Positions 16,938-45,742 of a stretch of DNA of 64,000 bases are shown piece after piece. Under the pieces are notes generated by a model. That model ran no database searches. It was not told the DNA's origin and worked only from the letters and a program-made list of their open reading frames with translations. This DNA is from Verrucomicrobia bacterium LP2A (GTDB lineage Bacteria; Verrucomicrobiota; Verrucomicrobiia; Methylacidiphilales; Methylacidiphilaceae): positions 1,054,001 to 1,118,000 of the forward strand of contig JAFS01000002.1 of assembly GCA_000526255.1 (NCBI GenBank), written 5' to 3'. A program made the translations under genes and the position numbers. The number at the start of each line of letters is the position of its first letter. Within the stretch, counting starts at the first letter, position 1.

Positions 16938-17612
16938 TCAGCCTGTCCCGGGAGTGGCTTCCGCATAGTGGGCGGTAGGCGGAGCAAAGCGGATCTCCCG
17001 GCTGCGGCTTTGGAGGAGGAGCTCCACGTTGGTCGCGGCGGTCTCGAGATCGAACTGGAGGTTTACCACCTTGCGGCCGAAATAGTTGAAGGGGATGAGC
17101 GCAAAGATGGCGAGAGCAAGCCCCGTGGCTGTGGCAATCAGGGCTTCCGCGATGCCGCCGCTGACCTTGACCGCTGCGAGCTCCTCGTTTCCCACGAAGT
17201 GGAAGGCATTCATGATCCCCGTTACGGTTCCCAAGAGGCCGAGGAGGGGGCCGAGCGTCACGATCGTATCGAGGATCGCGAGCCCGCGTCCGGCCTGCTT
17301 GAGCTCGAAGCCCGCAGCGACCTGCAGGGCGTTCTGCAGCGAGGTTTCATGATGGCTCAGCCCCCACCAGATCATCTTCATGACGGGATCCTTGGTGCCT
17401 CGCGCCAATTTGACCGCCTCCTCGATCTGGTCGTGCTTGAGCAGGCTATAGACTTCGGAGAGCCTGCTTCCCTGCCGGCGGAGCCGGACCATCGACCACC
17501 ACAGGATCCGCTCGAGGACCGTGACGATCGCGACGACCGCGGTGAGCAGCAACGGCCACATGATCGGGCCCCCGCGGGAGAAGGTGTTGAGGACGAGGTT
17601 GGCAAGGATCAT
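16938..17612 (-). CDS. exbB: ExbB/TolQ/MotA proton-channel protein
   Basis: A 224-residue inner-membrane subunit of the TonB energising complex. There is a span near residues 15-35, a cytoplasmic loop, then the conserved TLGPLLGLLGTVTGIMNAFH and GGIAEALIATATGLALAI spans containing the channel Thr/Glu residues. The frame is open far upstream, but ATG 17612 is preceded by AGGAGAG at ideal distance and gives the family N-terminus. Here exbB is last in the order exbD-tonB-exbB, which differs from the common exbB-exbD-tonB order. Confidence 0.92.
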   Translation of the reverse strand: MILANLVLNTFSRGGPIMWPLLLTAVVAIVTVLERILWWSMVRLRRQGSRLSEVYSLLKHDQIEEAVKLARGTKDPVMKMIWWGLSHHETSLQNALQVAAGFELKQAGRGLAILDTIVTLGPLLGLLGTVTGIMNAFHFVGNEELAAVKVSGGIAEALIATATGLALAIFALIPFNYFGRKVVNLQFDLETAATNVELLLQSRSREIRFAPPTAHYAEATPGTG

Positions 17613-17658
17613 TTTCTCTCCTGGGTTGGGGTGGGCATCGGCTGGATAAGCGGGGCGG

Positions 17659-18384
17659 CTATTCGAGTCGGTAGACGATCGGGATCGTGTAGCTGCCGGA
17701 AAGATTGCCCGGCAAGCGCCAGCGCTGTCGGATCCACTGGCGGGCGTTGGAATCGAGGAGTCCAAAGCCCGAGGATTGGACGACCTCGACGCTGAGGAGC
17801 TTCCCTTGGGCGACGGTGAGCGAGAGCTGGACCGTCCCTTGGTAGCGTCGCAGGGCGGCCTCGTAAGGATAGGGGGGCTTGGGCGTGTTCGCGTCGCCGA
17901 CCCGAGGTGCCGCCGCAGCATAGCGCATGGCTGGATGCGGCGGAGCGGTCACGGCCGTCTTCTTGACCGCATGGGCCGGCATGGGCGTGCGAGCTTCCAG
18001 TTGGGGCGCTGGCTTCTTTTCGGGAGGAGGAATGGGCTGAGGCGCAGGCTGCAGCTTGGGCTGCAGGAACTCAGGCTTCGGCTCCGGGGGCGGAGGAGGG
18101 GTAAACTCGACTTCGATCGGAGGGGAAGCCGCTTCCTCCTGCGGAGGGGGAGCGACCGGGGTCACCGCCCCACGGAGAAGCAGGTCTACGATCGACTGCT
18201 CCTTATTGGTGGCTCCCATCGCGAGCAGCAAGCCAGAGAGCAGGACGACGCAGAGAAGAGCCCAGCGCCCGTGGCGGAGTCCCTCGTCGAACGGATAGAG
18301 GGCATGGCCGAGCGGGACGATTTCGGGGCGGCCGCTGTTCCGTGGAACGGCTTGCGGATGGTTCGGATCGGTTCGGGAAGTCAT
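17659..18384 (-). CDS. tonB: TonB-type energy transducer
   Basis: A 241-residue protein with a single N-terminal membrane anchor (RWALLCVVLLSGLLLAMG, around 40-57). A Pro-rich periplasmic spacer (PPPPPEPKPEF and similar) and a C-terminal TonB domain follow, with PPYPYEAALRRYQGTVQLSL and a terminal strand. It links ExbB/ExbD to outer-membrane receptors such as the one at 40-43 kb. Its ATG overlaps the exbD stop (ATGA). Confidence 0.9.
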   Translation of the reverse strand: MTSRTDPNHPQAVPRNSGRPEIVPLGHALYPFDEGLRHGRWALLCVVLLSGLLLAMGATNKEQSIVDLLLRGAVTPVAPPPQEEAASPPIEVEFTPPPPPEPKPEFLQPKLQPAPQPIPPPEKKPAPQLEARTPMPAHAVKKTAVTAPPHPAMRYAAAAPRVGDANTPKPPYPYEAALRRYQGTVQLSLTVAQGKLLSVEVVQSSGFGLLDSNARQWIRQRWRLPGNLSGSYTIPIVYRLE

Positions 18385-18905
18385 CGGGCGACTTCTGGAT
18401 CTCGGAGAAGCGGGTTGTCTTTTCCCTTATGGCTTGGGGGCTTGGGCCCCGGCGTTGGCGCAGGAGAAGCGGAAAGCCCGGAAGCCCCCGCTGCCGGAGC
18501 TTCCTCCTTCACCTGGAAGCCGATCTTCTGAATCCCAGCCGCTCGCACCTTGTCGAGGACCTTCACCACGTCCCCGTGCAGCGTATTCATCTCGGCCTGG
18601 ACGTAGATGCGGAGGTTGGGCTCCTTCTCCTTGCGGCGCTTGAGCTCATCGACGAGCGCAGCTCGGTCGATCTCCTCCTTCTCGAGAAAGACCTGCCCGG
18701 TCTCCTTGATCGACAGGGTGAGGAAGTCAGACCTGTTTTCGGGGGTGGCGGTCTGCGCCGTCGGCAAGTTGAGCTTGAGGCCGCGCATCCGGATCATCTC
18801 GAGGTTCACCATCATCATGCAGGCCATGAGAAAGACCATGATGTCGATGAGCGGGATGATCTCGATCCGACCCTTCTTCTCCGGTACCGGGCTCAGAATT
18901 TTCAT
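18381..18905 (-). CDS. exbD: ExbD/TolR-type protein
   Basis: A 174-residue protein with a short cytoplasmic N-terminus, one span containing the family Asp (IEIIPLIDIMVFLMACMMM) and a periplasmic domain (LRIYVQAEMNTLHGDVVKVL). A Pro/Ala-rich C-terminal extension of about 35 residues is unusual for ExbD. It is the first gene of the exbD-tonB-exbB operon. Confidence 0.92.
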   Translation of the reverse strand: MKILSPVPEKKGRIEIIPLIDIMVFLMACMMMVNLEMIRMRGLKLNLPTAQTATPENRSDFLTLSIKETGQVFLEKEEIDRAALVDELKRRKEKEPNLRIYVQAEMNTLHGDVVKVLDKVRAAGIQKIGFQVKEEAPAAGASGLSASPAPTPGPKPPSHKGKDNPLLRDPEVAR

Positions 18906-18933
18906 GGGACCAATGACGGAAAGCAGTTGGTAT

Positions 18934-18948
18934 GCCAGCCGGGCTGGC
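18934..18948. promoter_or_regulatory. Palindrome upstream of exbD
   Basis: GCCAGCC-G-GGCTGGC is a perfect 7-bp inverted repeat with a single central base, about 30 bp before the exbD start codon. It could be an operator or a leader hairpin of the exbD-tonB-exbB operon. It does not look like a Fur box. Confidence 0.3.
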
Positions 18949-23668: not shown

Positions 23669-25039
23669 TTACTGACCGAGACCGCAGGGGCCCGGGAGAA
23701 AGCGGCCGCGAGCGCGGAGCGGATGGCCGAAGCGCGAGAAGGCGACCTCTCCGCGCACGAGCGTAAGCAGGATCGACGCCCGACTGGGAAGCCCCACATA
23801 GGGGCTCTGCGGGTGGCGATAGAGAAGATCCTTGGTGGCAATGGGCTTGGGCTCTCCGACCTCGACTAGTGCGAGATCCGCATCGTTGCCGACCGCAATT
23901 GCGCCTTTGCTCGCTATGCCAAAGCGCCGGGCGCTGCCCAGTGCGCAAAGCCGGGCGGCAAGCGGAAAGGCATGGCTGCCGCTTTCGGCGGCAAGCCGAT
24001 CGAGGAGGAGGGGAAGGAGATGCTGGCAACCGGAGATGCCTCCCCAGGCGGCAAAGAAGTCGCTCGTCGCTTTGGCGGCGGGCGGACAGGGAGAGTGATC
24101 CGAGGCGAGCAGATCGATCTGTTCCTGGAGGAGCGCCCGCCAGAGACCTTCGGACTGCCGCCGGCTGCGGAGTGGCGGCGCGCACTTGGCGAGGGCCCCA
24201 AGCCGCTCCAGCTCCTCCTCGCAGAGGACGAGGTAGTGGGGGCAGGTTTCCACGGTGACGTCGACCCCCTTGGCGCGCTCGGCTTGCGCGATCTCGACGA
24301 CCTCCGGAGCGCTCACGTGGACCAGGTGGAGCCGGCAGCCGGTTTCGCCCGCGCAGTCGAGGGCTTGCCGGACCGCCTCGATCTCCGCGGCCAGCGGCCG
24401 GGAGGCCAGATAGTCCCGCCAGCTGCCGCGCCCGTGGGCTCGCAGGCGTTGGGTCAGCTCCGTCACGATCCGTTCCGACTCTGCGTGGACCGCGACCGGG
24501 AGGCCGAAATCCGCCGCTTGGCGCATCCCTTCGCGCAGGGCAGCGCGATCGACCCACCCAAACTCGGGGGTCCCCGTCGGAGAGAGAAAGGCCTTGAAGC
24601 CGATCGCACCCGCCCGAGCCAATCCTTCCCGCTCCTTTTGATTCCCGGGGACGATGCCTCCCCACAGGGCGAAGTCGGTGACGGCCGTTGCTTCGGCCGC
24701 GCGCTTCTTTTCAAGAAAGCTCTCCACATCGACCGTGGGCGGCAAGGAGTTGAGAGGCATGTCGAAAAAGAGGCTTCCTCCGCCGGCGGCGAGCGCGCGG
24801 GAGCCCGTTGCGATTCCCTCCCACTCCTCCCGGCCCGGCTCATCGAAATGGACATGCGGGTCAATCGTCCCGGGAAAGAGGTATCGTCCTTCTCCATTGA
24901 CCTCCTCGCGGGCGCTTCCCTCCACTCCCGCCCCGATCGCCGCAATCCGCCCCTCCCGCACGGCGACATCCCGCAGGGAGACGCTCTCGGAGCTCACCAC
25001 GGCTGCCTGCCGAACGATCCAATCGAACTCTTCTGCCAT
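23669..25039 (-). CDS. allB: Allantoinase
   Basis: Cyclic amidohydrolase opening allantoin to allantoate. The 456-residue protein has the metal-binding PGTIDPHVHFDEPGREEWEG near residue 60, the carbamylated-Lys region AIGFKAFLSPTGTPEFG near 150, GLPVAVHAE, LHLVHVSAPE, TVETCPHYL, CAPPLRS and the LLASDHSPCPP block. DEPGREEWEG and the context separate it from dihydroorotase and hydantoinase. A longer frame extends to 26275 inside allC; ATG 25039 is the family start. It is the last gene of the xdhA-to-allB operon, 17 bp after allC. Confidence 0.93.
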   Translation of the reverse strand: MAEEFDWIVRQAAVVSSESVSLRDVAVREGRIAAIGAGVEGSAREEVNGEGRYLFPGTIDPHVHFDEPGREEWEGIATGSRALAAGGGSLFFDMPLNSLPPTVDVESFLEKKRAAEATAVTDFALWGGIVPGNQKEREGLARAGAIGFKAFLSPTGTPEFGWVDRAALREGMRQAADFGLPVAVHAESERIVTELTQRLRAHGRGSWRDYLASRPLAAEIEAVRQALDCAGETGCRLHLVHVSAPEVVEIAQAERAKGVDVTVETCPHYLVLCEEELERLGALAKCAPPLRSRRQSEGLWRALLQEQIDLLASDHSPCPPAAKATSDFFAAWGGISGCQHLLPLLLDRLAAESGSHAFPLAARLCALGSARRFGIASKGAIAVGNDADLALVEVGEPKPIATKDLLYRHPQSPYVGLPSRASILLTLVRGEVAFSRFGHPLRARGRFLPGPCGLGQ

Positions 25040-25056
25040 ACTCGATCCGAAGGCCC

Positions 25057-26295
25057 CTAGGGCAGGAAGCCCTCCACGAAGCCGACCAGCGCTTCGAGCG
25101 CACGCGCGGTGTCGGACGGGGAGACCAGCTCCGCAGGATCGTGGCTCACCCCGCCGCGGCAGCGGACAAAGAGCAGGACCATGGGGACGAGGCGACCGAA
25201 GACGCCCGCGTCGTGGCCGGCCCCGCTCCAGAGCCGAGGGGCTTTCCCTTGGATCGTGGTGATCACCGAGGAGAGCCGATCCTGCCAATCCGGGTCCGAT
25301 CGGACCGGGGGCAGTCGCTGCGTCCTCCGCCACCCGACCTCGATCCCCCGGTCTCTGCCGATCTCCTCCGCCCTCTCCAGGAGCGCCTGGGAGAGCCGAT
25401 CCAAGGCGGCTTCCTCGGGATGGCGCAGATCGACCGAGAGGTCGACGCGCTTCGGGATGACGTTGACGGCCCCGGGGAGACAGTGGAGCTCCCCCACGGT
25501 GGCGACCGCCCCGGGCTCCCGCCGGGAGGCCTCTTCGACAAAGGCCACGAAAGCCGCGGCGGCGCAGAGCGCATCGCGGCGCGCGCTCATCGGCACGCAG
25601 CCGGCGTGGCCACCCTCCCCCAGGAAGGAGAGGAGCAGCCGTTCCTGCGCGACGATGCCCAGGGCGACCCCGAGCGGCACTCCCAGGGCCTCCAGCTGCG
25701 GACCCTGCTCGATGTGGGCTTCGCAGTAGCCCAAGAGCTTCTCCCGGGGATCGGGTTCCATCCGAGGCCATCCCTGGATTGAAAAGGAGTCGTGGGCTTC
25801 GCGAAGGGAGATTCCGGAGGAGTCCTCGAGATTCCAATCCTTCTCTTCGAGAAGGCCCAGGAAGGCCCGGCTGCCGAGGCAGCCAGAGCGGAAGCGCGCT
25901 CCTTCCTCTTCCTGGAAGGCGAGGATGTCGAGAGCAAAGGGGAGGGAGCCTGCCCGGTCCTGGAGGATCTCCGCGGCGGAGATCCCCAAGAGAATCCCGA
26001 GCGCTCCGTCGAACCGTCCGCCGCCAGGAACCGTGTCGAGGTGGGAACCAATCAAAAGGACGGGCTCTTGGTTTTCCCGCACGCCCCATCCGCGTAGGTT
26101 GCCGAAGGCATCGACGGCGGGTCTGAGTCCCGCCTCCTCCATCCACCGGGCGGTCTCTTCCATCGCGCGGCAAAGGGAGCGGGTGAAGGGAGGGCGATTC
26201 AAGGCGCCCTCGCCCTCCGAGATTGCGCCGAGAAGATCGAGCCGCCGCCCGATCCTCTCCGCCTCTCGCAGCCAATCGACCCGCGTTGCGTTCAA
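25057..26295 (-). CDS. allC: Allantoate amidohydrolase (M20/amidase-hydantoinase family)
   Basis: Converts allantoate to ureidoglycine, CO2 and ammonia. Of its 412 residues, the di-metal site is visible as GSHLDTVPGGGRFDGALG near 85, the FQEEEGARF Glu pair near 130, CEAHIEQGPQLE near 195, SARRDAL near 245 and LWSGAGHDAGVFG near 350. No ATG or GTG fits the family N-terminus. A TTG at 26295 overlaps the puuD stop (TTGA), is preceded by GAGGGAGAG, and gives the right length. The GAGHDA motif matches allantoate amidohydrolase, in contrast to the YHDSLF motif of the paralogue at 34 kb. Confidence 0.9.
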   Translation of the reverse strand: MNATRVDWLREAERIGRRLDLLGAISEGEGALNRPPFTRSLCRAMEETARWMEEAGLRPAVDAFGNLRGWGVRENQEPVLLIGSHLDTVPGGGRFDGALGILLGISAAEILQDRAGSLPFALDILAFQEEEGARFRSGCLGSRAFLGLLEEKDWNLEDSSGISLREAHDSFSIQGWPRMEPDPREKLLGYCEAHIEQGPQLEALGVPLGVALGIVAQERLLLSFLGEGGHAGCVPMSARRDALCAAAAFVAFVEEASRREPGAVATVGELHCLPGAVNVIPKRVDLSVDLRHPEEAALDRLSQALLERAEEIGRDRGIEVGWRRTQRLPPVRSDPDWQDRLSSVITTIQGKAPRLWSGAGHDAGVFGRLVPMVLLFVRCRGGVSHDPAELVSPSDTARALEALVGFVEGFLP

Positions 26296-27632
26296 GGATG
26301 TCTCTCCCTCCTCGCTTGGGCTCCCCTTTCCCGTCCCCGGATCCACTGGCTCAGGAGCAGGCGCTCCTCCTCGGTCATCCCGGTGAGATTGCCCGGAGGC
26401 ATCGCTCGCAGCTCGACGGCTTGGGACCAGACGAGCGGAAGAGCTTCGCGCAGCCCCTCCAAGGTGTCGAGGACGACCCCGGAGGGAGGGCTCGCCAGGT
26501 GGGCGAGTGTCGGTTTCGCGGCGTGGCAGCCGGAGCAGCGCCGGAGGAGGATCGCCTCCACTTCCGCGTCGGTCGCTTCGCGGGTGGGCGCTCGGGGAGG
26601 AGAGATGACTGGAGTGGGCCGGGCAAAGGTGATGGCGCCGAAAACGAGCGCGGCTCCCCCGAGAAGCCAGGGGAGCCAGGACTGCTGCCGCTGGCGGAGG
26701 TTGACCGCGTGGCGCACCGTCCCTCCTGCGAGGAGAAGGCAGAAGAGAACCAACCAGTTGTCCCTGCCCAGGAAGGCGAATGGGAAGTGGTTGCTGATCA
26801 TCGTAAAGAGCACGGGGAAGGCGAGGTAGTTGTTGTGGAGTGAGCGGAGATGCGTGCGCTCCACCTGCGCGGGATCGAGGCGCTCTCCCCGCTGAGCGGC
26901 GTGGAGAAAGCGCCACTGGGCGGGGATGATCACGAAGAGCACATTCCCCACCATGATGGTTCCGAGCACCGCCCCGGTCTGCACAAAGGCACCCCGTCCG
27001 CTGTAGAGGTGCGTGAGCGTGAACGCGAGAGCCGCGAGGAGCAGGCAGGAGAAGAGGGCGAAGAGCCGCGGGCGCTGGAGGAGGGGAGTGGCGGCGAGCC
27101 CGGCATAGGCGAGCCAGCCCGCCGCCAGGATCGCCAGGCTGCAGAGGACGGCCATTCCGGGAGAGAGGGGGGCGATCTGCGGATCGATCAAGGTCGCTTC
27201 CGGATGGGCGTAGAAGAGGAGGATGAGGAGCGCGAATCCGGTCATCCAGGTGAGGTAGGCATCCCAGCGGAACCAGTGGAGAAGGGCCGGGAGGGGAAGG
27301 GGTGCGGTGCGGTATTTCTCGAGCCGGTAGACGCCTCCCCCATGCACGGTCCAGAGACGGCCGGCGAGGGCGCTCTCCCCAGGAAAGCGTTCCAGGCTGT
27401 TCTCGACGAAGATGAAGTAGAAGGAAGCCCCGATCCAGGCGATTCCGTAGATGAGGTGGGCCCAGCGGAGCAGCAGGGGAAGCCAAAGGGAAAGCAGCGA
27501 GGTGCCGAAGCCCGGCAGGGAGCTGAGAGCGAAGAGGGCGGGCAGGAGGGCTCCGGCGATCCCGATCCCGAGGAGGAGAGAAGTCCCGAGGGAGGATCTC
27601 CTTCCGGATCGTAAAGGGGAGTGCGGTTCCAT
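26292..27632 (-). CDS. puuD: Membrane-bound urate hydroxylase with cytochrome c domain
   Basis: Oxidises urate to 5-hydroxyisourate and passes electrons to the respiratory chain instead of oxygen. The 446-residue protein has about eight membrane spans in the first 340 residues, including the RWAHLIYGIAWIGASFYFIF, VHGGGVYRLEKY, FRWDAYLTWMTG and RSLHNNYLAFPVLFTMIS blocks of the family. A C-terminal cytochrome c module carries CSGCH near residue 375 and a Met ligand candidate in AVELRAMPPGN. This is the PuuD family described for bacterial urate catabolism. It sits between guaD (9 bp gap) and allC (4-bp overlap). Confidence 0.92.
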   Translation of the reverse strand: MEPHSPLRSGRRSSLGTSLLLGIGIAGALLPALFALSSLPGFGTSLLSLWLPLLLRWAHLIYGIAWIGASFYFIFVENSLERFPGESALAGRLWTVHGGGVYRLEKYRTAPLPLPALLHWFRWDAYLTWMTGFALLILLFYAHPEATLIDPQIAPLSPGMAVLCSLAILAAGWLAYAGLAATPLLQRPRLFALFSCLLLAALAFTLTHLYSGRGAFVQTGAVLGTIMVGNVLFVIIPAQWRFLHAAQRGERLDPAQVERTHLRSLHNNYLAFPVLFTMISNHFPFAFLGRDNWLVLFCLLLAGGTVRHAVNLRQRQQSWLPWLLGGAALVFGAITFARPTPVISPPRAPTREATDAEVEAILLRRCSGCHAAKPTLAHLASPPSGVVLDTLEGLREALPLVWSQAVELRAMPPGNLTGMTEEERLLLSQWIRGRERGAQARRERHP

Positions 27633-27641
27633 CCTCTGGGC

Positions 27642-28163
27642 TTAGTAGTGGATCTTATTCTTCGATTGATTCCAGAGAGCAAAGGCCTGCCGGCAGGCGG
27701 GCAGATCGATGCGCTCGACCAGAAGGCGCCGCTCTTCCGGAGGAAGCTGCACCTCCTTCCAAAGGGCAACGTCGAGGAAGCCGGCTTCCGCGGCCAGGGA
27801 GGAGGGGGCGCCGCAAACGATCCTCTCGATCCGGGCCCAGTAGGCGGCTGCCAGACACATGGGGCAGGGATCGCAGTTGACGTAGAGAACGCATCCTCCG
27901 AGATCAAACCGGCCGATCGTCTGGGCGGCCTCCCGAATCGCTTCGATCTCGGCGTGGGCCGTTGGATCGGGACGGGCGGTTACCCGGTTGACTCCCCGTC
28001 CAACGATGGCGTTCTCACGCACGACGACCGCCCCAAAGGGCCCCCCCTCGCTCTGGAGCACGTTTTCGGTGGCCAGCCTGGCCGCCTCTTCCAGAAATCG
28101 GATCTCCGAAGCGCTCCCCTGGGCTCGGCCTCCCCCCGAAGGATCGGACGGTGAAGGATTCAT
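27642..28163 (-). CDS. guaD: Guanine deaminase (cytidine-deaminase-fold)
   Basis: A 173-residue zinc deaminase: TAHAEIEAIREA carries the zinc His and catalytic Glu, CDPCPMCLAA the two zinc Cys. The last 20 residues (ACRQAFALWNQSKNKIHY) end in a Tyr, as in the domain-swapped Bacillus-type guanine deaminase. A tRNA adenosine deaminase is the main alternative, but the position between xdhC (ATGA overlap) and puuD argues for guanine to xanthine conversion. Confidence 0.82.
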   Translation of the reverse strand: MNPSPSDPSGGGRAQGSASEIRFLEEAARLATENVLQSEGGPFGAVVVRENAIVGRGVNRVTARPDPTAHAEIEAIREAAQTIGRFDLGGCVLYVNCDPCPMCLAAAYWARIERIVCGAPSSLAAEAGFLDVALWKEVQLPPEERRLLVERIDLPACRQAFALWNQSKNKIHY

Positions 28164-28999
28164 GGATCGGGAAGCCCTTCACTTTCCGCTACGTCCGGGG
28201 TGGGGGAGGAGAGGAGGGAGAGGAGCTGTGCTGCGGTTGCAATCGCAATCGCGGCCGGGCTCTTGTCCCCGATCCCCGGGAGGCCGATCGGCGTGGTGAT
28301 GCGGCTCCAGGCATCCTCCCCGAAGCCCGCCTCTCGAATCCTCTTCCGGAAATGGGCACGCTTGGCCTCGCTGCCGATCAGACCAATGTAGCCGAGATCG
28401 GTACGGGCCAGGGCCGCTTCGAGGATCGCGAGATCTTCGGCATGGTCGTGGGTGAGGATCACGACGCAGGCTCCCGGAGAGAGGGAAGAGATCCATTTTT
28501 CTGGAATCAACCCGGGACAGCAGTGGACGTTCGCAGCACTGTCGAGAGCGGGGAGACGGCTCGGGTGAAGCATCTCCGGTCGCGAATCGACGAGGAAGAG
28601 GTCGAGCGGCAGGAGCGAGAGCACCTGCGCGAGCGCCCGCCCCACATGCCCCATCCCGAAGATCGCAACCTGGGGCGCTTCCCGGGTCACCGGCTCGAGG
28701 AAGAGGGAGACTTCGCCGCCGCAGCACTGGGCGCCCCACTCTCCCTTCTCGCCGGCCAGCCGCACCGTGATCGAGCGCGGGCTCCTCTCTCGGCGCTCCA
28801 GCATCTGCCGCGCCTCGGTAATGGCGCTCTGCTCGAGATTCCCTCCGCCGACGGTTCCGAAGCTCCCTTCGTCCGTCACGAGCATTTTGGCCCCGATGGC
28901 TTGCGGCGCATGGCCGCGCACCCCGGTGATCGTGACGATCGCGATCCGGGCATGCGTGCGCAGCAGCTCGCGAAGCTTGTCGATCCAGGGTGTGGTCAT
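28160..28999 (-). CDS. xdhC: XdhC-type molybdenum cofactor insertion protein
   Basis: Chaperone that sulfurates and inserts the molybdenum cofactor into xanthine dehydrogenase. The 279-residue protein has the N-terminal XdhC/CoxI domain (VTITGVRGHAPQAIGAKMLV, FGTVGGGNLE, GAQCCGGEVSLFLEP) and a C-terminal Rossmann-like domain (QVAIFGMGHVGRALAQVLS, DSRPEM, YIGLIGSEAKRAHFRKRI). ATG 28999 overlaps the xdhB stop and its own stop overlaps the guaD ATG, both as ATGA. The frame is open to 29302, inside xdhB. Confidence 0.93.
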   Translation of the reverse strand: MTTPWIDKLRELLRTHARIAIVTITGVRGHAPQAIGAKMLVTDEGSFGTVGGGNLEQSAITEARQMLERRERSPRSITVRLAGEKGEWGAQCCGGEVSLFLEPVTREAPQVAIFGMGHVGRALAQVLSLLPLDLFLVDSRPEMLHPSRLPALDSAANVHCCPGLIPEKWISSLSPGACVVILTHDHAEDLAILEAALARTDLGYIGLIGSEAKRAHFRKRIREAGFGEDAWSRITTPIGLPGIGDKSPAAIAIATAAQLLSLLSSPTPDVAESEGLPDP

Positions 29000-31383
29000 G
29001 ACTGGGACGCTGCTCCCAAGCAGAGCTGCGGGGTCCGTGGATCCACCCCTCCCGCTTTCTTGCCGGCCTGGCTCCCTCGGCGTGCCGCCTCGATCGCCCA
29101 ATAGACGCGCTCGGGCGTGGCGGGAAGTCCGAGATCGACCGGGCCGGAACCGAAGGCGGCGATTCCCGCCTTGAGGGCTTCCCGCACCGAGAGAGCGAGA
29201 AGGAGCGGGGGTTCGCCAACCGCCTTGGATCCGCCGATGGCGGGGCTTTCGGCACCGCGCGAAAAAAAACGGACCTCGAAGCGGGGAGGGAGCTCGCTCC
29301 ACGAGGGCAGCTTGTAGGTCGAGGCCCCCGCCGTTCGGAGCCTTCCTTCGCGATCCCAGAGGAGCTCTTCGCAGGTCACCCAGCCGAGACCCTGGAAGAA
29401 GGCTCCTTCCACCTGTCCCCGGTCGATCAAGGGATTGATCGAGCGCCCCACGTCGTGGAGGATCTCCACCGAAAGAATCCGATACTCCCCGGTAAAGCCG
29501 TCGATCTCGACCTCCGAGACGGTGGCTCCAATCGCAAAATAGGCAAAAGGAGTCCCTTGTCCGGTTTCCGGATCGAAGGAGAGCCCCGGGGTCCGGTAGA
29601 ACCCTTGGGCAAAGAGGGGGATCGATTGGAGGTAGGCCTCTTCGACGAGCTGGGTAAAGGAAAGAGAACGGGTGGGCTCATATTCGCAAAAGACCCGCCC
29701 ATCCTGGAAGCAGACGAGGAGGGCCGGGCAACCGAGCCGCTTCGCCGCCAGCGGGCGGAGGCGATCGAGAAGCTGGCGGCAGGCTTCGGCGACGGCCGGG
29801 CCGCTCAGGTCGCAGCCGCTCGATGCCGCCGTCGGGGAGCTGTTGGGGATCGCGTCGGTCCGGGTCGTCATGACCCGGATCGATTCGAGCGGCAGGCCGA
29901 GCGAGGAGGCCGCGATCTGGCGGATCTTGGTCTGGAGCCCTTGGCCCATCTCGGTGCCCCCGTGGTGGAGCTGCACGCTGCCGTCGCGATAGAGGAGCAC
30001 GCTGGCTCCCGCCTGGTTGAGGCAGCCGCGGGTGAAGGAGATCCCGAACTTTACCGGGGTGATCGCGATTCCCCGTTTCCAATGAGGATTGAGCCGATTG
30101 GCCTCCGCGATCTCTTCCGCCCGCTCCGCGTACCGGGTCTGCTTCCAGAGCGAGTCCCAGAGCGCCCGTAGCGATTCGGCTTCGCGAACCTCCTGGCCAT
30201 AGGGAGTCGTCTGCCCGGCCCGATAGAGATTGCGTTCCCGAACCAGGGAAGGAGAAAGGTCGAGATGATGGGCGATGCGGGTGAGGACCTCCTCGATCAG
30301 CGCCGCCCCCTGCGGACCGCCAAAGCCGCGGAAGGCCGTCTGAGAGGTCTTGTGGGTTCGGCAGACGAAGCCGACCGCCTCGATTGCGGGAATCCAGTAG
30401 GCATTATCGAGGTGGAGCAGAGCCCGCCAGAGGACGCCGGCCGAAAGGTCCTGGCTCCAGCCGCCATCCGCATAGAGCTCGACCTGGAGCGCAAGCAGCT
30501 TTCCCTCCCGAGTGAAGCCCGCTCGGAATCGCCCGAGAAAGGGATGCCGCTTTCCGGTCAGGATCATGTCCAGGGAGCGGGGGAGGCGGACGCGGACCGG
30601 CCTGCCGGCCTTGAGGCAGCCCAGCGCCGCGATGGCCGCGTAGGGAGCTGCCTGGACCTCCTTCCCGCCAAAGGCTCCGCCCATGCGCGGACACTCGACG
30701 GTGATCCGATGCCGGGGAAGGCCCAGCACGCGGGCGACGACCTCCTGCGTCTGGCTCGGATGCTGGGTGGAGCTCCGGACGAACACTCCTCCGTTCGCAT
30801 CCATCCAGGCCAAGGCCGCCTGCGTCTCCAGGGAGAAGTGCTCCTGGCCCCCCATCCAAAGGGACCCCTGGATCAGAAAAGGACTCCGCTCCCATGCGGC
30901 AGGAAACTCCCCCCGATTCAGCCGGAACGGTCCGGCGAGCCAGCACTGCGCTTCGATCGCCTCCTCGAGCCCAATCACGCTCGGCAGCGGCTCATAGTCC
31001 ACCGGAATGGCCGCCGCTCCCAGGCGGGCCGCCTCCCGGCTCTCCCCGAGAACCCAGGCGACCGGTTGACCGTGGTAGAAGACCTCATCGATGGGCAAGA
31101 GCGGCTCATCGAAAACGCCCGAGCTCGTATCGTTCACTCCCGGGACGTCGGTCGCGGTAAGCACGGACGCGACTCCCGGATATCCGAAAGCGCCCTCGCG
31201 CCCGATCTGGCGAATGCGGGCGTGCGCATGAGGGCTGAGGACCGGCCAGGCGTGAAGCAGATCGCGGAAGCGCCCGGCATCGTCGTCGACATAGCAGGCC
31301 CCTCCGCGGACATGGTCGAAAGCGCTCTCGTGAGGCAGCGGTTGACCGATCGGGCTCAATGGGGAAGGCGACGGGTTTGCCAA
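28996..31383 (-). CDS. xdhB: Xanthine dehydrogenase, molybdenum-binding subunit
   Basis: Large catalytic subunit (795 residues) that hydroxylates hypoxanthine and xanthine. It starts with the GGACYVDD entry of the aldehyde-oxidase/xanthine-dehydrogenase a/b hammerhead domain. It continues with the Moco-contacting RMGGAFGGKE and FRGFGGPQG blocks, HGGTEMGQGLQTKI, and ends with the KAVGEPPLL block carrying the catalytic Glu. It overlaps the end of xdhA by 28 bp. Symbols follow the bacterial split XdhA (Fe-S/FAD) and XdhB (Mo) convention. Confidence 0.94.
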   Translation of the reverse strand: MANPSPSPLSPIGQPLPHESAFDHVRGGACYVDDDAGRFRDLLHAWPVLSPHAHARIRQIGREGAFGYPGVASVLTATDVPGVNDTSSGVFDEPLLPIDEVFYHGQPVAWVLGESREAARLGAAAIPVDYEPLPSVIGLEEAIEAQCWLAGPFRLNRGEFPAAWERSPFLIQGSLWMGGQEHFSLETQAALAWMDANGGVFVRSSTQHPSQTQEVVARVLGLPRHRITVECPRMGGAFGGKEVQAAPYAAIAALGCLKAGRPVRVRLPRSLDMILTGKRHPFLGRFRAGFTREGKLLALQVELYADGGWSQDLSAGVLWRALLHLDNAYWIPAIEAVGFVCRTHKTSQTAFRGFGGPQGAALIEEVLTRIAHHLDLSPSLVRERNLYRAGQTTPYGQEVREAESLRALWDSLWKQTRYAERAEEIAEANRLNPHWKRGIAITPVKFGISFTRGCLNQAGASVLLYRDGSVQLHHGGTEMGQGLQTKIRQIAASSLGLPLESIRVMTTRTDAIPNSSPTAASSGCDLSGPAVAEACRQLLDRLRPLAAKRLGCPALLVCFQDGRVFCEYEPTRSLSFTQLVEEAYLQSIPLFAQGFYRTPGLSFDPETGQGTPFAYFAIGATVSEVEIDGFTGEYRILSVEILHDVGRSINPLIDRGQVEGAFFQGLGWVTCEELLWDREGRLRTAGASTYKLPSWSELPPRFEVRFFSRGAESPAIGGSKAVGEPPLLLALSVREALKAGIAAFGSGPVDLGLPATPERVYWAIEAARRGSQAGKKAGGVDPRTPQLCLGAASQS

Positions 31384-32756
31384 TGGAACTTCTCCAGGAG
31401 GTTTTTCGCTACGGCGAGCCGATAGGCCCTGCTCCCGCGGTGATCGTCGATTGGCGCAAGGGCTGCTGCGAGGGCTCGCCGGGCTCGCTCGATCGCCGGG
31501 AGCTCCCAGGGCTTGCCCTCAAGCTCCTCCTCCGCCGCCGCGGCACGGAGGGGCCGGTCGGCGACGCCCCCGAGCGCCAAGCCGATCCGTCGCACGCGCC
31601 GCACGGCATCGAGATCGAGCGCAGCGGCCAGGGAGACGGTGGCGATGTCATCACTCTGCCGCTTCGCGACCTTGTAGAAGCGGACGATCGAGGGATAGGG
31701 CTTCGGGATCCGAATGGCGCAGATGACCTCCCCGGGCCGAAGGGCCGTTTTCCGGTAGCCCAGGAAAAATGTGTCCAGGGAGATCTCCCGGCTTCCTTCG
31801 GAGGAGAGAAGCACGATCCGCGCATCGAGGGCGAGGAGCAGCGGGGCCGAGTCTCCCACCGGGGAAGCCGTCGCCAAGTTTCCGCCCAGCGTCGCGCGGT
31901 TCCGGATCAGGGGTGAGGCGAAGAGCGGGAGCCACTCCCGCAGTCCGGGCGGAGGCTCGGGGATCTCCCCGAGACGCTCCTCGATTGCGCGCAGCGAAAG
32001 CCCGGCTCCGATCTCGATCCCTTGGGCGTCCTCGCGGAAGCCGCGCAGCTCGGGGATCCCCTCGAGGCTGACCAGGCAGGGAAAGCGCCGAAAGCGGAGG
32101 TTGCGTTCCACCGAAAGATCGGTCATCCCGGCCGCCCACCGTGCCTCCGGATAGCGGGAGGAGAGCTTCCAGAGCGCATCGAGGCTGGTTGGCCGCAGGA
32201 AGCGTTCGGGACCCGATTCCCAGGAGAGCGGACCGAGCCGGGGCGGAGGAGAGGAAAGGCGTCGGAAGAGGGGATGATCGGCTTCGAGGGGGGGGAGTCG
32301 GAGCGCGGCATCCCGAATCGGCCGATAACCGGTGCAGCGGCAGAGGTTGCCCGACAGGGCTGCCAGCGTGGCTCCCCCTCCGCGCCGATCGCTCTGCTCC
32401 GCAAAGAGTGAGACCACGAACCCCGGTGTGCAGTAGCCGCATTGCGAGCCCCCTTCCTCCACCATCCCCCGCTGGGCCTGGCACATCCGGTCTCCCTCGG
32501 CCAGCGCTTCGACCGTATAGATCTCCCGGTGGGCCGCGGCGGCGAGGGGAACCAGGCAGCTGTTGATGGCACGCAGGCACGAAATCCCTTCCCGCTCCTC
32601 GACCCAAAGGAGGGCGCAGGCTCCGCACTCCCCTTCGGCGCACCCCTCCTTCGCCCCCGTGAGGCCGATCGACCGGACGTAGTCGAGCAGGGTCTCCCCC
32701 GCCTCGCTCGATCCGACGATGCGCACTCGGCCATTGATCGTGAGAGGAAAGCTCAT
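31356..32756 (-). CDS. xdhA: Xanthine dehydrogenase, 2Fe-2S and FAD subunit
   Basis: Small subunit (466 residues) carrying electrons from the Mo site to NAD. Domains in order: plant-type 2Fe-2S (CAEGECGACALLWVEE near 40), a second 2Fe-2S helical domain (QCGYCTPGFVVSL near 105, NLCRCTGYRPI near 135) and an FAD-binding domain (IRNRATLGGNLATASPVGD near 290). The frame continues to 33824, but ATG 32756 gives the natural N-terminus MSFPLTINGR. It is the first gene of the operon; the region before it is shared with the divergent allE. Confidence 0.94.
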   Translation of the reverse strand: MSFPLTINGRVRIVGSSEAGETLLDYVRSIGLTGAKEGCAEGECGACALLWVEEREGISCLRAINSCLVPLAAAAHREIYTVEALAEGDRMCQAQRGMVEEGGSQCGYCTPGFVVSLFAEQSDRRGGGATLAALSGNLCRCTGYRPIRDAALRLPPLEADHPLFRRLSSPPPRLGPLSWESGPERFLRPTSLDALWKLSSRYPEARWAAGMTDLSVERNLRFRRFPCLVSLEGIPELRGFREDAQGIEIGAGLSLRAIEERLGEIPEPPPGLREWLPLFASPLIRNRATLGGNLATASPVGDSAPLLLALDARIVLLSSEGSREISLDTFFLGYRKTALRPGEVICAIRIPKPYPSIVRFYKVAKRQSDDIATVSLAAALDLDAVRRVRRIGLALGGVADRPLRAAAAEEELEGKPWELPAIERARRALAAALAPIDDHRGSRAYRLAVAKNLLEKFHWQTRRLPH

Positions 32757-32926
32757 TGCGTCCAATTGCCCGCTTCCTTTCCGGCAAACCGCACCCTCTC
32801 TTCCCTTGCGCTGCCTCAGGCAAGCAGAAGGCGTGCCACCGTCTAATCTAGCCGCGATCTTCGGAAACCGGAAGGGGCAGCCGGACGCCATCGCGGCACA
32901 AAAGCTGCTTTTCGTCAGCCGATGGC
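32757..32926. promoter_or_regulatory. Divergent control region xdhA / allE
   Basis: The 170 bases separate the two purine-degradation transcription units and must contain both promoters. No strong consensus promoter is visible. AAAAGCTGCTTTT at 32900-32912 is a perfect palindrome 14 bp before the allE ATG and is a candidate operator. Confidence 0.4.
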
Positions 32927-33721
32927 ATGAGGGCAACTGGCGGTCAGAAGGATTGCTTGCCGGGAAGGGCGTCACTCCTCGGCAGCACGCGGACGGTGGT
33001 CGGCAAGACGCATGCGCTGCTGGATCCCGCAAGCCATGTCCACGGCGGGCTGCCGGGATTTTCCTCCGATGCGGTGGTCGTGCTGATTTCGCCCCCAATC
33101 GGGGCAGGCTTCGTCCAGTTTCTGGTCGATCTGGAGCCATACGAGGCGGGCGGTTCGAGCCTGCCGGGAATCGAGAGCTTTCTCTACCTCCTTGCCGGAG
33201 AGGCCTCCGCCGATCTCGGCGGGCGAGCAGCTTCGCTCTCCGCTGGCGACTTCTTCTTTTCCCCACCCGGCATCGAATGGAGCCTCCGTGCGGGCGGCTC
33301 CGGAGCTCATGCCGTCGTCTTTCAGAAGACCTATGCCCGCCTGCCAGGAGTGGAGCCTCCTTCGCTCGTCCTCGGGCGAACCGAGGAGGGGGGCGGTCGC
33401 CCCTTTTTGGGCGATCCCGACGCCCTTCTCCAGACCTTCCTCCCCGAGGAACCCTCCTTCGACATGGCGGTGAACCTCTTCCAGTTCCGTCCAGGCGCCT
33501 CCCTCCCCTTCGTCGAAGCGCACGTGATGGAACATGGGCTGTTGATGCTCGAAGGGAGGGGGATCTACCGCCTCGACGACGGCTGGTATCCGGTCGTGGC
33601 GGGGGATGCGATCTGGATGGCCCCCTATTGCCCGCAATGGTTTGCGGCCCTTGGTCCCACGCCGGCCCGCTATCTCTATTACAAGGACGTGGGCCGCCAT
33701 CCGTTGGATGGCTCACATTGA
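32927..33721 (+). CDS. allE: (S)-ureidoglycine aminohydrolase
   Basis: Bicupin enzyme (264 residues) that releases ammonia from (S)-ureidoglycine to give (S)-ureidoglycolate. The two cupin halves are visible: LPGIESFLYLLAGEASADLG with LSAGDFFFSPPG in the first, and FVEAHVMEHGLLMLEGRGIY with VVAGDAIWMAPYCPQWF in the second. The second cupin carries the Mn-binding Glu/His/His/Gln set. The family signature MAVNLFQFRPGASLPFVE is well preserved. It is followed 12 bp later by ureidoglycolate amidohydrolase. Confidence 0.92.
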   Translation: MRATGGQKDCLPGRASLLGSTRTVVGKTHALLDPASHVHGGLPGFSSDAVVVLISPPIGAGFVQFLVDLEPYEAGGSSLPGIESFLYLLAGEASADLGGRAASLSAGDFFFSPPGIEWSLRAGGSGAHAVVFQKTYARLPGVEPPSLVLGRTEEGGGRPFLGDPDALLQTFLPEEPSFDMAVNLFQFRPGASLPFVEAHVMEHGLLMLEGRGIYRLDDGWYPVVAGDAIWMAPYCPQWFAALGPTPARYLYYKDVGRHPLDGSH

Positions 33722-33733
33722 GAGCGGCAAGAG

Positions 33734-34990
33734 ATGGAGGATCGCTTCGGCTGCGCACCGCTTCCGATTCGCCCGGACCGGATCGTCTCCCTTCTGGAAG
33801 AGCTGGCCGCCTTTTCCGACCCACCTTCCCCGGGTGTCACCCGGATCCTCTTCTCCCCTCCCGATCTGGCAGCGCGAACGTGGCTCAAGGCTCGCTGCCA
33901 GGAGCAGGGACTCGCCATCCGGGAAGATGCCGCCGGTAACCTCTTTGCTCGATGGGTGGGCCGGGAGCCCGATCTCCCAGCGATTGCCACGGGCTCCCAT
34001 ATCGACGCTGTCCCGCATTCGGGTCGCTTCGATGGGACCGTCGGGGTCGTGGGAGCGCTCGAGGCCTTCCGGGCCCTCCGCCAATCGGGATTTCGCCCAA
34101 AACGGTCCCTGGAGCTCGTGGTCTTCACCGCCGAGGAACCGACCCGTTTTGGCGTTAGCTGCTTGGGGAGCCGGCTCCTCGCCGGAAGAATGCGGCCGGA
34201 GGATCTGGAAAGGTTGCAGGACGAAGCGGGCGAGAGCTTCCCTCGGCTCCGCGAGCGTGCGGGCTTGGCGCAACTCCCACTCTCCGCCCTTGCGCCGCCC
34301 CATTATGCGGCATTTCTCGAGCTCCACATCGAGCAGGGCCCGGTTCTCGAAGGGACGGGCGAGGCGATTGGAGCCGTCGAGGCGATCGCGGCCCCGGCCG
34401 CCTATCGAGTCCGTTGGGAAGGGGTGAGCGGACATGCGGGCACGCTGCTCATGCCCGATCGGCGAGATGCCCTGGCGGGTGCTGCGGAAGCAATCCTTGC
34501 CGTCGAGCGCGCAGCCAAGGAATCCGAATCTCTCGACACGGTCGCCACGGTGGGAGAGATTGCCGTGAGCCCCGGGGCTCTCAACTCAGTGGCGGGCAGC
34601 GTCTCCTTCGGGATCGACCTGCGCGACAGCGATCCGCGGCGACGCGAGCGCGTGGCGCGCGCCATGCGCCAATCCCTTGGGGAGATCGCAAAGCGACGAG
34701 GATTGAAGCTCAGTTGGCAAATCCTCTACGAAGATCCCCCCGCCGCTTGCGATCCCGCGCTCGTCGCACAGATCCTCGAAAGCGCCGATCGGCTCGGGCT
34801 CCGGGCACGGAGGATGATCAGCCGGGCCTATCATGACTCCCTCTTCCTGGCTCTCCTCTGCCCGGTTGCGATGATCTTCATCCCATGTCGAGGAGGGAAG
34901 AGCCACTGTCCGGAAGAGTACTCCTCGCCCGAGCAGATCGAGGCCGGAGTGCATGTCCTGGCCGATTGCTTGCGGGCCTTGGCGGGCTAG
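33734..34990 (+). CDS. Ureidoglycolate amidohydrolase (M20 family, UAH-like)
   Basis: A 418-residue M20 dinuclear hydrolase, paralogous to AllC. Metal-site blocks: GSHIDAVPHSGRFDGTVG, TAEEPTRFGVSCLGSR, ELHIEQGPVLE and GVSGHAGTLLMPDRRDAL. The C-terminal active-site region SRAYHDSLFLALLCPVAMIF followed by FIPCRGGKSHCPEEY differs from AllC's GAGHDA and matches the pattern I recall for plant ureidoglycolate amidohydrolase. Predicted reaction: ureidoglycolate to glyoxylate, CO2 and two ammonia. Other carbamoyl-amino-acid hydrolases share the family, but the pairing with allE supports this call. Confidence 0.85.
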   Translation: MEDRFGCAPLPIRPDRIVSLLEELAAFSDPPSPGVTRILFSPPDLAARTWLKARCQEQGLAIREDAAGNLFARWVGREPDLPAIATGSHIDAVPHSGRFDGTVGVVGALEAFRALRQSGFRPKRSLELVVFTAEEPTRFGVSCLGSRLLAGRMRPEDLERLQDEAGESFPRLRERAGLAQLPLSALAPPHYAAFLELHIEQGPVLEGTGEAIGAVEAIAAPAAYRVRWEGVSGHAGTLLMPDRRDALAGAAEAILAVERAAKESESLDTVATVGEIAVSPGALNSVAGSVSFGIDLRDSDPRRRERVARAMRQSLGEIAKRRGLKLSWQILYEDPPAACDPALVAQILESADRLGLRARRMISRAYHDSLFLALLCPVAMIFIPCRGGKSHCPEEYSSPEQIEAGVHVLADCLRALAG

Positions 34991-35594: not shown

Positions 35595-35597
35595 TTA
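35590..35597. repeat. 8-bp target-site duplication, left copy
   Basis: TCCATTTA directly abuts the left end of the IS; the identical octamer is at 38171-38178. Read on the minus strand it is TAAATGGA and contains the ATPase start codon. Confidence 0.9.
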
Positions 35598-35629
35598 GGG
35601 TACTATCGCATTGACTCAGGCAGCCACAA
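35598..35629. repeat. IS terminal inverted repeat, left
   Basis: This 32-bp end includes the tnpB stop codon (35616-35618), so the last four sense codons and the stop of tnpB lie inside the transposase-recognition end. Confidence 0.85.
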
Positions 35630-38122: not shown

Positions 38123-38138
38123 GATCAGAATCTAGGGA

Positions 38139-38483: not shown

Positions 38484-39851
38484 TCATCCGAGAGCTGCCG
38501 CCTGCTTCTCACGCTGGGTCAGGCTGAGGTAGAGCAGAGCCGAGACGACGGTCCCAACGATGACCGCACCATCGCCCCATTCGGGATGCGCGGCGGCGAT
38601 GGATCCGAGGAACCAAGGCTCTTGCCGGATGAAGGGGAGGGAAGAGAGAACTCCGCCCAGCCAGCAGAAAAATCCGATCGACCCCGTGTCGAGGGAAGGG
38701 ATTCGCGAGAGGCGCGGCCGGAGGTGGGCGATCGCCAGGATCGGAAGCCGCGGGAAGATCAGGTAGGCGAGCAGGAAGAGGAGCCCCTCGTACCGCTGGT
38801 AGAATTCCTGCTGGCCGAAAAGCGCGATGGCAAGGCCTGTTGCGCCAACAAGGAGCGAGGCTCGGGATTGGGGGATGCGGATTCCGGCACCCAGGAGGGA
38901 GAGGCCAGCCGAGTAGAGATTGATCATGTTGGCGCTGATCGTTCCCATCACGATCGCTACCGCGAGGAGCAGGTGGAGGGAGCCCGGCAGCAAGGAGAAG
39001 AGCAGGTCTGTCGGGTCTTTGGAGCGGATCGCTCCCCCCAGGAAAGCGCCGAGGATCTCGATCCAGGTAGTCGAGAGAAAGGCTCCCCAGAAGGTGTGCC
39101 AGAAGACCTGCCGCTCGATCGACCGGGGCTCGTTCTCGTAGCGGAGGTAGCGGGAGTAGTCGGCAGCGAAGAGCATCCAGCCTCCGAGGTAGGAGAGGGA
39201 GATGGTTGCCGTGAGGATCCATGCTCCGGGGACCGCTGCTCCACTCCCAATTTTCGGTGCTGGGCAGGAGCCGACCGGGAGGGGGAGCAGGGCGAGCGCA
39301 GAGACGACGGAGAAGAGGAGTACGAGGACCAGGAAGCAGGCATCTCCCGCCCGAAGGATGAGCTTGTGGCCGATGCTGGCAACCAGGATTTGGACCGCGG
39401 CGAGCAGGAGGATCGCCGGGGCGGGAGGGATCGAGAGGATATGCTTGAGGGCATAGGCGCAGACCACCGTGTTGACAGCAAACCAGGAGGCACCGTTCAA
39501 GAAGTTGATCCAAGAGAGGATGCGGTTGCCCGGCTGTCCGAACCACCGCTCGCAAAGAGCCATCATCGGGACGCCGTAACGGACGCCGTAGGTGGAGAAG
39601 AGGCCGAGCACGAGGGAGCCCAGGAAGTTGGCGATGGCGATCGCCAGCGCGGCCTTCCAGAGCGGGAGGCCGAGAAAAGCGGTGGCGATGGCTCCCGTGC
39701 CCAAGGTCGCGATGTTGACATTGGCCGCCATCCAGAGTCGGAAGAGGCTTTCCGGCTGGCCATGGGCCTCTTGCGCCGTGACCCGCTCGATTCCCTTCAC
39801 CTCGAAGGGAGAGCTCTTCCTCGTGGCTCGCAGGGGCATTCCCTTCCTCAT
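38484..39851 (-). CDS. NCS1-family purine/pyrimidine or allantoin permease
   Basis: A 455-residue inner-membrane symporter with about twelve spans. NCS1 landmarks include the N-terminal FRLWMAANVNIATLGTGAIA, the SWINFLNGASWFAVNT block and the LFAADYSRYLRYE signature in the sixth/seventh span region. Its ATG 39851 overlaps the hiuH stop (ATGA). Position in an operon with a TonB receptor and HIU hydrolase suggests urate, xanthine or allantoin as substrate; sequence alone cannot choose. Confidence 0.85.
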   Translation of the reverse strand: MRKGMPLRATRKSSPFEVKGIERVTAQEAHGQPESLFRLWMAANVNIATLGTGAIATAFLGLPLWKAALAIAIANFLGSLVLGLFSTYGVRYGVPMMALCERWFGQPGNRILSWINFLNGASWFAVNTVVCAYALKHILSIPPAPAILLLAAVQILVASIGHKLILRAGDACFLVLVLLFSVVSALALLPLPVGSCPAPKIGSGAAVPGAWILTATISLSYLGGWMLFAADYSRYLRYENEPRSIERQVFWHTFWGAFLSTTWIEILGAFLGGAIRSKDPTDLLFSLLPGSLHLLLAVAIVMGTISANMINLYSAGLSLLGAGIRIPQSRASLLVGATGLAIALFGQQEFYQRYEGLLFLLAYLIFPRLPILAIAHLRPRLSRIPSLDTGSIGFFCWLGGVLSSLPFIRQEPWFLGSIAAAHPEWGDGAVIVGTVVSALLYLSLTQREKQAAALG

Positions 39852-40195
39852 TGCCCGCGGTAGACCGTGTAGCTCCATGGGGTGATGAGAAGTGGGATGT
39901 GGATGGGATCGGTCGTTCCGCTCATGCCGAAACGGATCACGATCTCGTCGAGGAAGGGCGGCTCGGGAAGCACGATCCCCGCTTGGGTAAAATAGCCCGC
40001 AATCGCAAAGACGATCTCGTACCGCCCGGCTCCGAGAAGTGCCTTCCCTGGGGGCGTGCAGGCCGCCCTTCCTGTTCGATCGGTCCGGCACTCGGCCAAG
40101 AGCTCCTGCGACTCGGCGCGGTAGAGGCGGAGCGGCACCCCCTCTGCGGGTCTTCCGTGGACCAGATCGAGCACGTGGGTCGTGAGGTGGCTCAT
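39848..40195 (-). CDS. hiuH: 5-hydroxyisourate hydrolase (transthyretin-related)
   Basis: Hydrolyses 5-hydroxyisourate, the PuuD product, to OHCU. The 115-residue protein starts MSHLTTHVLDLVHGRPAEGV, contains the catalytic His near the N-terminus, an Arg in LAECRTDRTGR, the HIPLLITPWSYTVY block, and ends YRGQ in place of the usual YRGS tetrapeptide. It has no evident signal peptide, so it is likely cytoplasmic. It starts 5 bp after the TonB receptor stop. Confidence 0.92.
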   Translation of the reverse strand: MSHLTTHVLDLVHGRPAEGVPLRLYRAESQELLAECRTDRTGRAACTPPGKALLGAGRYEIVFAIAGYFTQAGIVLPEPPFLDEIVIRFGMSGTTDPIHIPLLITPWSYTVYRGQ

Positions 40196-42782: not shown

Positions 42783-42830
42783 TCCGCTTGGCTCCGGAGG
42801 GCAGATAAAGCAGCCCCCGTGCCAAGCGGA
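42783..42830 (-). promoter_or_regulatory. Leader hairpin over the ribosome site of the TonB receptor gene
   Basis: TCCGCTTGGC (42783-42792) and GCCAAGCGGA (42821-42830) are a perfect 10-bp inverted repeat. In the minus-strand transcript the 28-nt interior can form a second helix (GGGGGC with GCCCUC, closed by a 10-nt loop). The 3' arm ends AGCGGA two bases before the receptor ATG, so the hairpin would mask the ribosome-binding region. It may instead be an operator shared with the divergent adenine deaminase gene. Confidence 0.5.
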
Positions 42831-42886
42831 GAGGAATGCGTTCGATCTCTGTGGCATATATTCTGCTTGATTGCCCAAAAATTCCC

Positions 42887-45690: not shown

Positions 45691-45742
45691 CGCGACGTTC
45701 GAAAGCAGCTTGCGTACCAGGAAGCGGATCCGCCTGGAGAGG

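Follow-up and report, generated by a model that had tools for sequence, protein, structure and literature searches.

The plant ureide pathway, as known from Arabidopsis, leads through xanthine dehydrogenase (XDH), uricase, allantoin synthase, allantoinase (ALN), allantoate amidohydrolase (AAH), (S)-ureidoglycine aminohydrolase (UGLYAH, here UGHY) and (S)-ureidoglycolate amidohydrolase (UAH) to glyoxylate, without the formation of urea. The E. coli all regulon (AllB, AllC, AllE) ends with the AllD dehydrogenase or the AllA lyase. Systems built around the urate oxidase PuuD, such as that of Agrobacterium fabrum, almost invariably include the decarboxylase Urad, which was lacking in only one of 159 PuuD species surveyed (PMC4562309). 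Here we describe a locus of Verrucomicrobia bacterium LP2A (assembly GCA_000526255.1; 2,465,519 bases in three contigs) that combines elements of all three. The DNA analysed, referred to as the window, comprises 64,000 nucleotides of contig JAFS01000002.1 (positions 1,054,001 to 1,118,000). Judging from its gene content, conservation and promoters, we consider it highly likely that the locus is a purine nitrogen-scavenging unit of an acidophilic verrucomicrobial methanotroph, probably a Methylacidimicrobium, and that it is driven by sigma54 and equipped with a plant-type, urea-free ending. The plant-type ending is not unique; the surprise lies in the host, the regulon and a missing enzymatic step. 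A sequence-only reading of positions 23669-34990 had listed xanthine dehydrogenase, guanine deaminase, PuuD, allantoinase, an AllC-like protein, UGHY and a UAH-like M20 paralogue, and family models and structure matches confirm this inventory.

Two M20 hydrolases and a probable plant-type ending

The evidence supports the assignment of the protein encoded at 33734-34990 as a UAH orthologous to the Arabidopsis enzyme, in agreement with the UAH-like identity proposed earlier. It scores 427 bits against Arabidopsis UAH (4pxe), compared with 251 bits against Geobacillus L-carbamoylase (3n5f) and 196 bits against E. coli AllC, and its identity to Arabidopsis UAH (53%) is on a par with the 53-55% that it shares with UAHs from the order beyond its family. 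In a preliminary tree of 136 M20 proteins (quick method, no bootstrap), 53 proteins with the AYHD motif, including Arabidopsis UAH and the window protein, form one clade with an SH-aLRT support of 100. The metal- and substrate-binding residues of M20 enzymes (H89, D100, E134/E135, H198, H234, N284, R297 and H391) are invariant in all 53 UAH and all 34 AAH rows of the alignment, and UAHs are set apart by A92, V103, P136, P221, L239, D298, R364 and Y366. Tyr366 occurs in 53/53 UAH rows, and its place is taken by Gly in 34/34 AAH rows and in E. coli AllC (AYHD versus GAGHD). The substrate pocket of UAH is reportedly smaller than that of AAH, and a tyrosine replacing glycine at this position agrees with that.

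The NCBIfam matches of the same protein point elsewhere: the best subfamily name is allantoate amidohydrolase, ErtE scores 398 bits (below its cutoff of 520), and no UAH-specific model is among them. Taken at face value, they would suggest a second N-carbamoyl-L-amino-acid hydrolase, akin to ErtE or L-carbamoylase, lying beside the ureide genes by chance. Set against the far higher Arabidopsis UAH score, the shared clade, the UAH-only residues Tyr366 and Arg364 and the pairing of UGHY with UAH across many phyla, such an identity is extremely improbable, and scores, tree and residues led us to reject it. The tree separates 33734-34990, which groups with Arabidopsis UAH, from the carbamoyl-amino-acid hydrolases, and places the other M20 protein of the locus (25057-26292) in an AAH clade of its own.

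This second clade consists of 34 AAHs of the same operons. E. coli AllC does not join it and groups with Paenibacillus proteins. The window AAH nevertheless matches E. coli AllC at T87, G131, Q216, P234, G357 and G359, of which Q216 is otherwise rare, and the AAH-type pocket residues Gln216, Gly359 and GAGHD are common to all 34 AAH rows and E. coli AllC. Clade, residues and the ureide operon context together identify 25057-26292 as a predicted allantoate amidohydrolase.

The enzyme acting between the two, UGHY, also matches its Arabidopsis (4e2q, 176 bits) and E. coli (YlbA, 1rc6, 143 bits) counterparts. It is not of the bifunctional allantoicase form (NF040771, 145 bits versus a cutoff of 350). 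In two genomes of the same order, G023 (L041, 10210-13169) and G035 (L042, 8471-11427), UGHY lies near a different M20 protein with a GALHDA motif, which falls outside both the UAH and the AAH clades.

The plant-like ending is widespread in bacteria and not peculiar to this locus. A scan of genomes recovered 44 UAH-clade loci with 48-57% identity, followed by a sharp drop to at most 44%. Of the 44 loci, 36 have UGHY within the DNA stretch fetched for them, and some of the remaining eight are cut off by contig ends; among 36 other M20 loci of lower identity, none has it. An operon of the type XDH-UraD-(PuuD)-HIUH-AAH-ALN-UGHY-UAH recurs in Acidobacteriota, Deinococcota, Verrucomicrobiota and others. 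Arabidopsis UAH lies inside the bacterial clade, next to a metagenome-assembled genome of the Deinococcales (support 94); as the only plant sequence in the tree, it provides no basis for a claim of transfer. Among the matches listed, plasmid-borne proteins stayed below 45% identity. We found no report of an assayed bacterial UAH in the open-access literature, which is weak evidence since subscription papers were outside the scope. As the window protein matched no UAH model in NCBIfam, the bacterial UAHs of these operons (L068-L109, L111 and L114) are likely misnamed allantoate amidohydrolase. A urea-free, plant-type end of purine breakdown would then be a common bacterial trait hidden under that name.

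Predicted nitrogen recovery without urea

Genome-wide family searches, on which the statements about absence from this genome rest, found neither a urease alpha subunit nor a ureidoglycolate lyase (AllA). A urea-releasing end would therefore be a dead end in this organism, and we have ruled it out. The Asp/Glu (allantoin) racemase family PF01177 likewise gave no match in the genome. From these absences it follows that UAH provides the only recognised way to recover the last two nitrogens. UAH orthology and the lack of urease and AllA thus support the earlier proposal that the route ends at glyoxylate without urea, as in plants.

We infer all reactions, transport directions and the nitrogen control of the cluster from sequence, and the following course of events is envisaged. 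When nitrogen is limiting, the units of the cluster would be transcribed by RNA polymerase carrying sigma54, judging from their promoter sequences. Purines and nucleosides would cross the outer membrane via the TonB-dependent receptor, nucleosides would be split by the nucleoside hydrolase, presumably in the periplasm, and the bases would enter through the NCS1 permease. Adenine deaminase, guanine deaminase and xanthine dehydrogenase would channel them to urate, which PuuD would oxidise to 5-hydroxyisourate (HIU). HIU hydrolase would yield 2-oxo-4-hydroxy-4-carboxy-5-ureidoimidazoline (OHCU), from which allantoin would form by decarboxylation, although no enzyme for this step is recognisable. 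Allantoinase and AAH would release ammonia and CO2 to give ureidoglycine, UGHY would convert this to ureidoglycolate and ammonia, and the plant-type UAH would free the last two nitrogens as ammonia along with CO2 and glyoxylate. No urea would be formed, in agreement with a genome that lacks urease.

The missing OHCU decarboxylase

The OHCU decarboxylase family (PF09349) is absent from 13/13 Methylacidiphilaceae genomes searched, including all six that encode PuuD and the genome of the window; the family search turned up no copy elsewhere in the genome. The family is found in all eight further PuuD genomes sampled from the class. The loss probably reflects one evolutionary event, and the six PuuD genomes are not independent cases. 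Because this gene is missing, the earlier claim that all urate nitrogen is released becomes conditional: the ending with three hydrolases stands, and completeness requires either that allantoin be stereochemically pure, in the (S) form, or that allantoinase be non-selective. Rescue of (R)-allantoin by a racemase was ruled out by the lack of a PF01177 match.

The simplest explanation of the gap, and in our judgement the probable one, is that OHCU decays spontaneously, in which case allantoin would be racemic and part of it lost, or allantoinase would take both forms. The half-lives of HIU and OHCU are short (7.2 and 9.6 min; PMC4562309), a fungal OHCU decarboxylase mutant is slow on urate and later catches up (PMC3646786), and the lack of a racemase match in the genome is in line with this explanation. 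It sits less comfortably with the retention of HIU hydrolase, since keeping this enzyme for stereochemistry makes little sense if the next step is uncontrolled, and with the near-universal company of PuuD and Urad, both in the published survey and in the eight other PuuD genomes of the class.

The HIU hydrolase itself is unusual. Its catalytic His/Arg/His residues are kept (H5, R41 and H97 in alignment numbering), but the C-terminal YRGS signature is altered to YRGQ in the window and to YRGR or YRGQ in the other family members aligned. The last residue is Gln or Arg in the five Methylacidiphilaceae proteins aligned, that of G002 not being part of this C-terminal alignment, versus Ser in 39/40 and Thr in 1/40 of the others. 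Together with the absence of PF09349 from all 13 genomes, this raises the idea that the Methylacidiphilaceae have swapped OHCU decarboxylase for an unrecognised catalyst, possibly the YRGQ/YRGR HIU hydrolase carrying out both steps. We regard such a replacement as rather unlikely: the motif change is only correlated with the loss and may reflect one ancestral event, and a search of the conserved purine units for an extra, unassigned gene that could act as decarboxylase found none, the conserved extras upstream being ExbB and a major facilitator superfamily (MFS) transporter. If true, the urate pathway of this family would run counter to the reported rule by which both Urah and Urad accompany PuuD. 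The missing decarboxylase, for which spontaneous decay is our preferred account, is a clean and testable gap in a well-studied pathway.

Sigma54-like promoters and probable nitrogen control

The divergent stretch between xdhA and the UGHY gene carries -24/-12 elements in both directions that are conserved in five genomes. The pattern YGGCAC-N5-CTGC occurs four times in the window versus 0.37 expected, and a looser pattern eight times versus 1.8 expected. Six of these eight looser sites precede a gene of the cluster in the correct orientation, at distances of 14-67 nt (exbD, xdhA, the UGHY gene, the receptor gene, adeC and the Rieske gene); the internal genes of the cluster are not preceded by sites of the looser pattern. 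RpoN is encoded in the genome (rpoN), and the cluster very probably constitutes a sigma54-dependent, nitrogen-limitation regulon.

Several points weigh against the interpretation of the locus as a sigma54-driven scavenging unit. The looser promoter pattern was set with knowledge of the first sites, and with this pattern the adeC site was not found in G004 or G005. The genome-wide lack of OHCU decarboxylase could limit the yield if allantoin is racemic. Finally, the published nitrogen sources of these methanotrophs are others only (PMC7907005, PMC8498564), and nothing on their use of purines was found in the literature searched. Our interpretation predicts that methane-oxidising Verrucomicrobiota, described as using N2, ammonium, nitrate and cyanate, could also use purine nitrogen under the control of RpoN.

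Layout, conservation and neighbouring genes

The purine cluster extends from about 15.2 to 46.9 kb of the window (Table 1), so the interval 23669-34990 given by the sequence-only reading was too short. Its divergent organisation was described correctly: seven genes on the minus strand (xdhA, xdhB, xdhC, guanine deaminase, puuD, AAH and allantoinase) and two on the plus strand (UGHY and UAH) are separated by about 170 bp, and all nine are intact. The two M20 hydrolases, said to flank this part, carry the GAGHDA and AYHDSL motifs as described, but on the left the outermost gene is that of allantoinase and not that of the AllC-like protein.

Beyond these nine genes, the right side continues with HIU hydrolase, the NCS1 permease and the TonB-dependent receptor, then adenine deaminase, the Rieske oxygenase and the nucleoside hydrolase; the left side contributes ExbD, TonB, ExbB and the MFS transporter, with some 4.8 kb, transposase remnants among them, between this group and allantoinase. 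In G004, G005 and G012 exbD adjoins the allantoinase gene. The cluster is kept in four genomes of the same genus (G001, G002, G004 and G005), within the limits of their contigs, and in G012 of a sister genus, and because of this conservation we do not regard it as a chance assembly. An Rfam scan of the window gave no matches.

The receptor had no Pfam match above threshold. With a TonB-ExbB-ExbD set of its own in the cluster, it is a predicted candidate receptor for purines or ureides. The Rieske protein matches SxtT/SxtDIOX best (220 bits), followed by the methylxanthine demethylase NdmA (137 bits); it is a probable purine or methylpurine oxygenase and may act as a purine hydroxylase or N-demethylase. 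Genomes G024 and G025 carry relatives of it in their ureide loci as well.

Table 1. Features of the purine cluster in the window
Feature	Position	Strand	Basis or remark
MFS transporter (aromatic-acid/H+ symport-like)	15189..16610	-	Downstream of ExbB; DNA stretch conserved in relatives
ExbB/TolQ-type proton channel protein	16938..17627	-	PF01618, TolQ/ExbB models; coordinates of the translated region
TonB	17659..18384	-	PF03544, TIGR01352; with ExbD beside allantoinase in G004, G005, G012
ExbD	18381..18905	-	PF02472
Sigma54-like promoter TGGCATACCAACTGC	18923..18937	-	17 nt before exbD; equivalent site in G004, G005, G012
Allantoinase	23669..25039	-	TIGR03178, 488 bits (cutoff 358)
Predicted AAH (M20, GAGHDA)	25057..26292	-	Operonic AAH clade; 26292 is the end of the stop-free frame, first residue shown Asn
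PuuD membrane urate oxidase	26292..27632	-	PF06181, 342 bits, E 3.5e-102; C-terminal haem motif CSGCH
Guanine deaminase (CDA fold)	27642..28163	-	Best solved relative 1wkq/1tiy, 142 bits; plant guanosine deaminase, 97 bits
XdhC maturation factor	28160..28999	-	TIGR02964, above cutoff
XdhB, molybdopterin subunit of xanthine dehydrogenase	28996..31383	-	TIGR02965, 851 bits (cutoff 849.5)
XdhA, FeS/FAD subunit of xanthine dehydrogenase	31356..32756	-	TIGR02963, 398 bits (below cutoff 467)
Sigma54-like promoter TGGCACGCCTTCTGC	32824..32838	-	67 nt before xdhA; conserved in five genomes
Sigma54-like promoter CGGCACAAAAGCTGC	32894..32908	+	18 nt before UGHY gene; conserved in five genomes
UGHY/UGLYAH	32927..33721	+	TIGR03214, 261 bits (cutoff 200)
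UAH (M20, AYHDSL)	33734..34990	+	Scores, tree, residues, context
NCS1-type nucleobase/ureide permease	38484..39851	-	PF02133, above cutoff
HIU hydrolase	39848..40195	-	TIGR02962, 93.6 bits (cutoff 87.45); C-terminus YRGQ replacing YRGS
TonB-dependent outer-membrane receptor	40201..42780	-	Weak siderophore-receptor matches over plug; conserved place in cluster
Sigma54-like promoter TGGCACGGGGGCTGC	42810..42824	-	29 nt before receptor gene
Sigma54-like site TGGCATATATTCTGC	42852..42866	+	20 nt before likely adeC start (42887); also present in G012
Adenine deaminase	42887..44770	+	PF13382; TIGR01178, 342 bits (below cutoff 472.5); longest open reading frame from 42836, likely start 42887
Rieske oxygenase, SxtT/NdmA kind	44722..45690	-	PDB comparison; in conserved cluster
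Sigma54-like promoter TGGTACGCAAGCTGC	45705..45719	-	14 nt before Rieske gene; equivalent site in G004, G005, G012
Nucleoside hydrolase	45743..46864	-	PF01156; signal-peptide-like N-terminus

Mobile elements have left traces on both sides of the divergent core. ISL3-family transposase remnants in several frames (21796-23017) lie between exbD and allantoinase, next to an open reading frame (19550-21799) whose N-terminal domain is of the filamentous haemagglutinin kind. An AAA-type ATPase gene (35044-38171) located between UAH and the permease is interrupted by the genes of TnpB (35616-37307) and of an IS1595 transposase (37178-38122); it is apparently unbroken in G004, and the purine genes on either side of the insertion are intact in the window. 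In G005 the gap between UAH and the permease measures about 6 bp. In G004 (L034, 6350-7489), whose UAH is 98% identical, the nucleoside hydrolase is lacking that both the window and G005 encode beside the Rieske gene.

Comparison with known systems

The locus shares with the plant ureide pathway the last three hydrolases and their order, as well as the predicted end at glyoxylate without urea, the UAH being orthologous by tree. It differs in the oxidation of urate, for which plants use Uox and the window encodes PuuD, and in the following steps, where a fused OHCU decarboxylase-HIU hydrolase in plants stands against an HIU hydrolase only. The allantoinase, allantoate amidohydrolase and ureidoglycine aminohydrolase steps are like those of the E. 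coli all regulon; however, UAH takes the place of AllD or AllA, the latter being without a match here, and the AAH stems from another clade than E. coli AllC. The Agrobacterium fabrum system resembles the locus in combining a PuuD that carries a cytochrome c domain with an HIU hydrolase, and differs in having the Urad that is lacking here. The UAH operons of Acidobacteriota, Meiothermus/Calidithermus and other Verrucomicrobiota are alike in their AAH-ALN-UGHY-UAH genes, often joined by XDH, HIU hydrolase and PuuD. OHCU decarboxylase is encoded nearby in 21 of the 44 fetched stretches, several of which are cut short, and in none of the Methylacidiphilaceae genomes searched. The cluster described here also stands out by including a TonB system together with its receptor.

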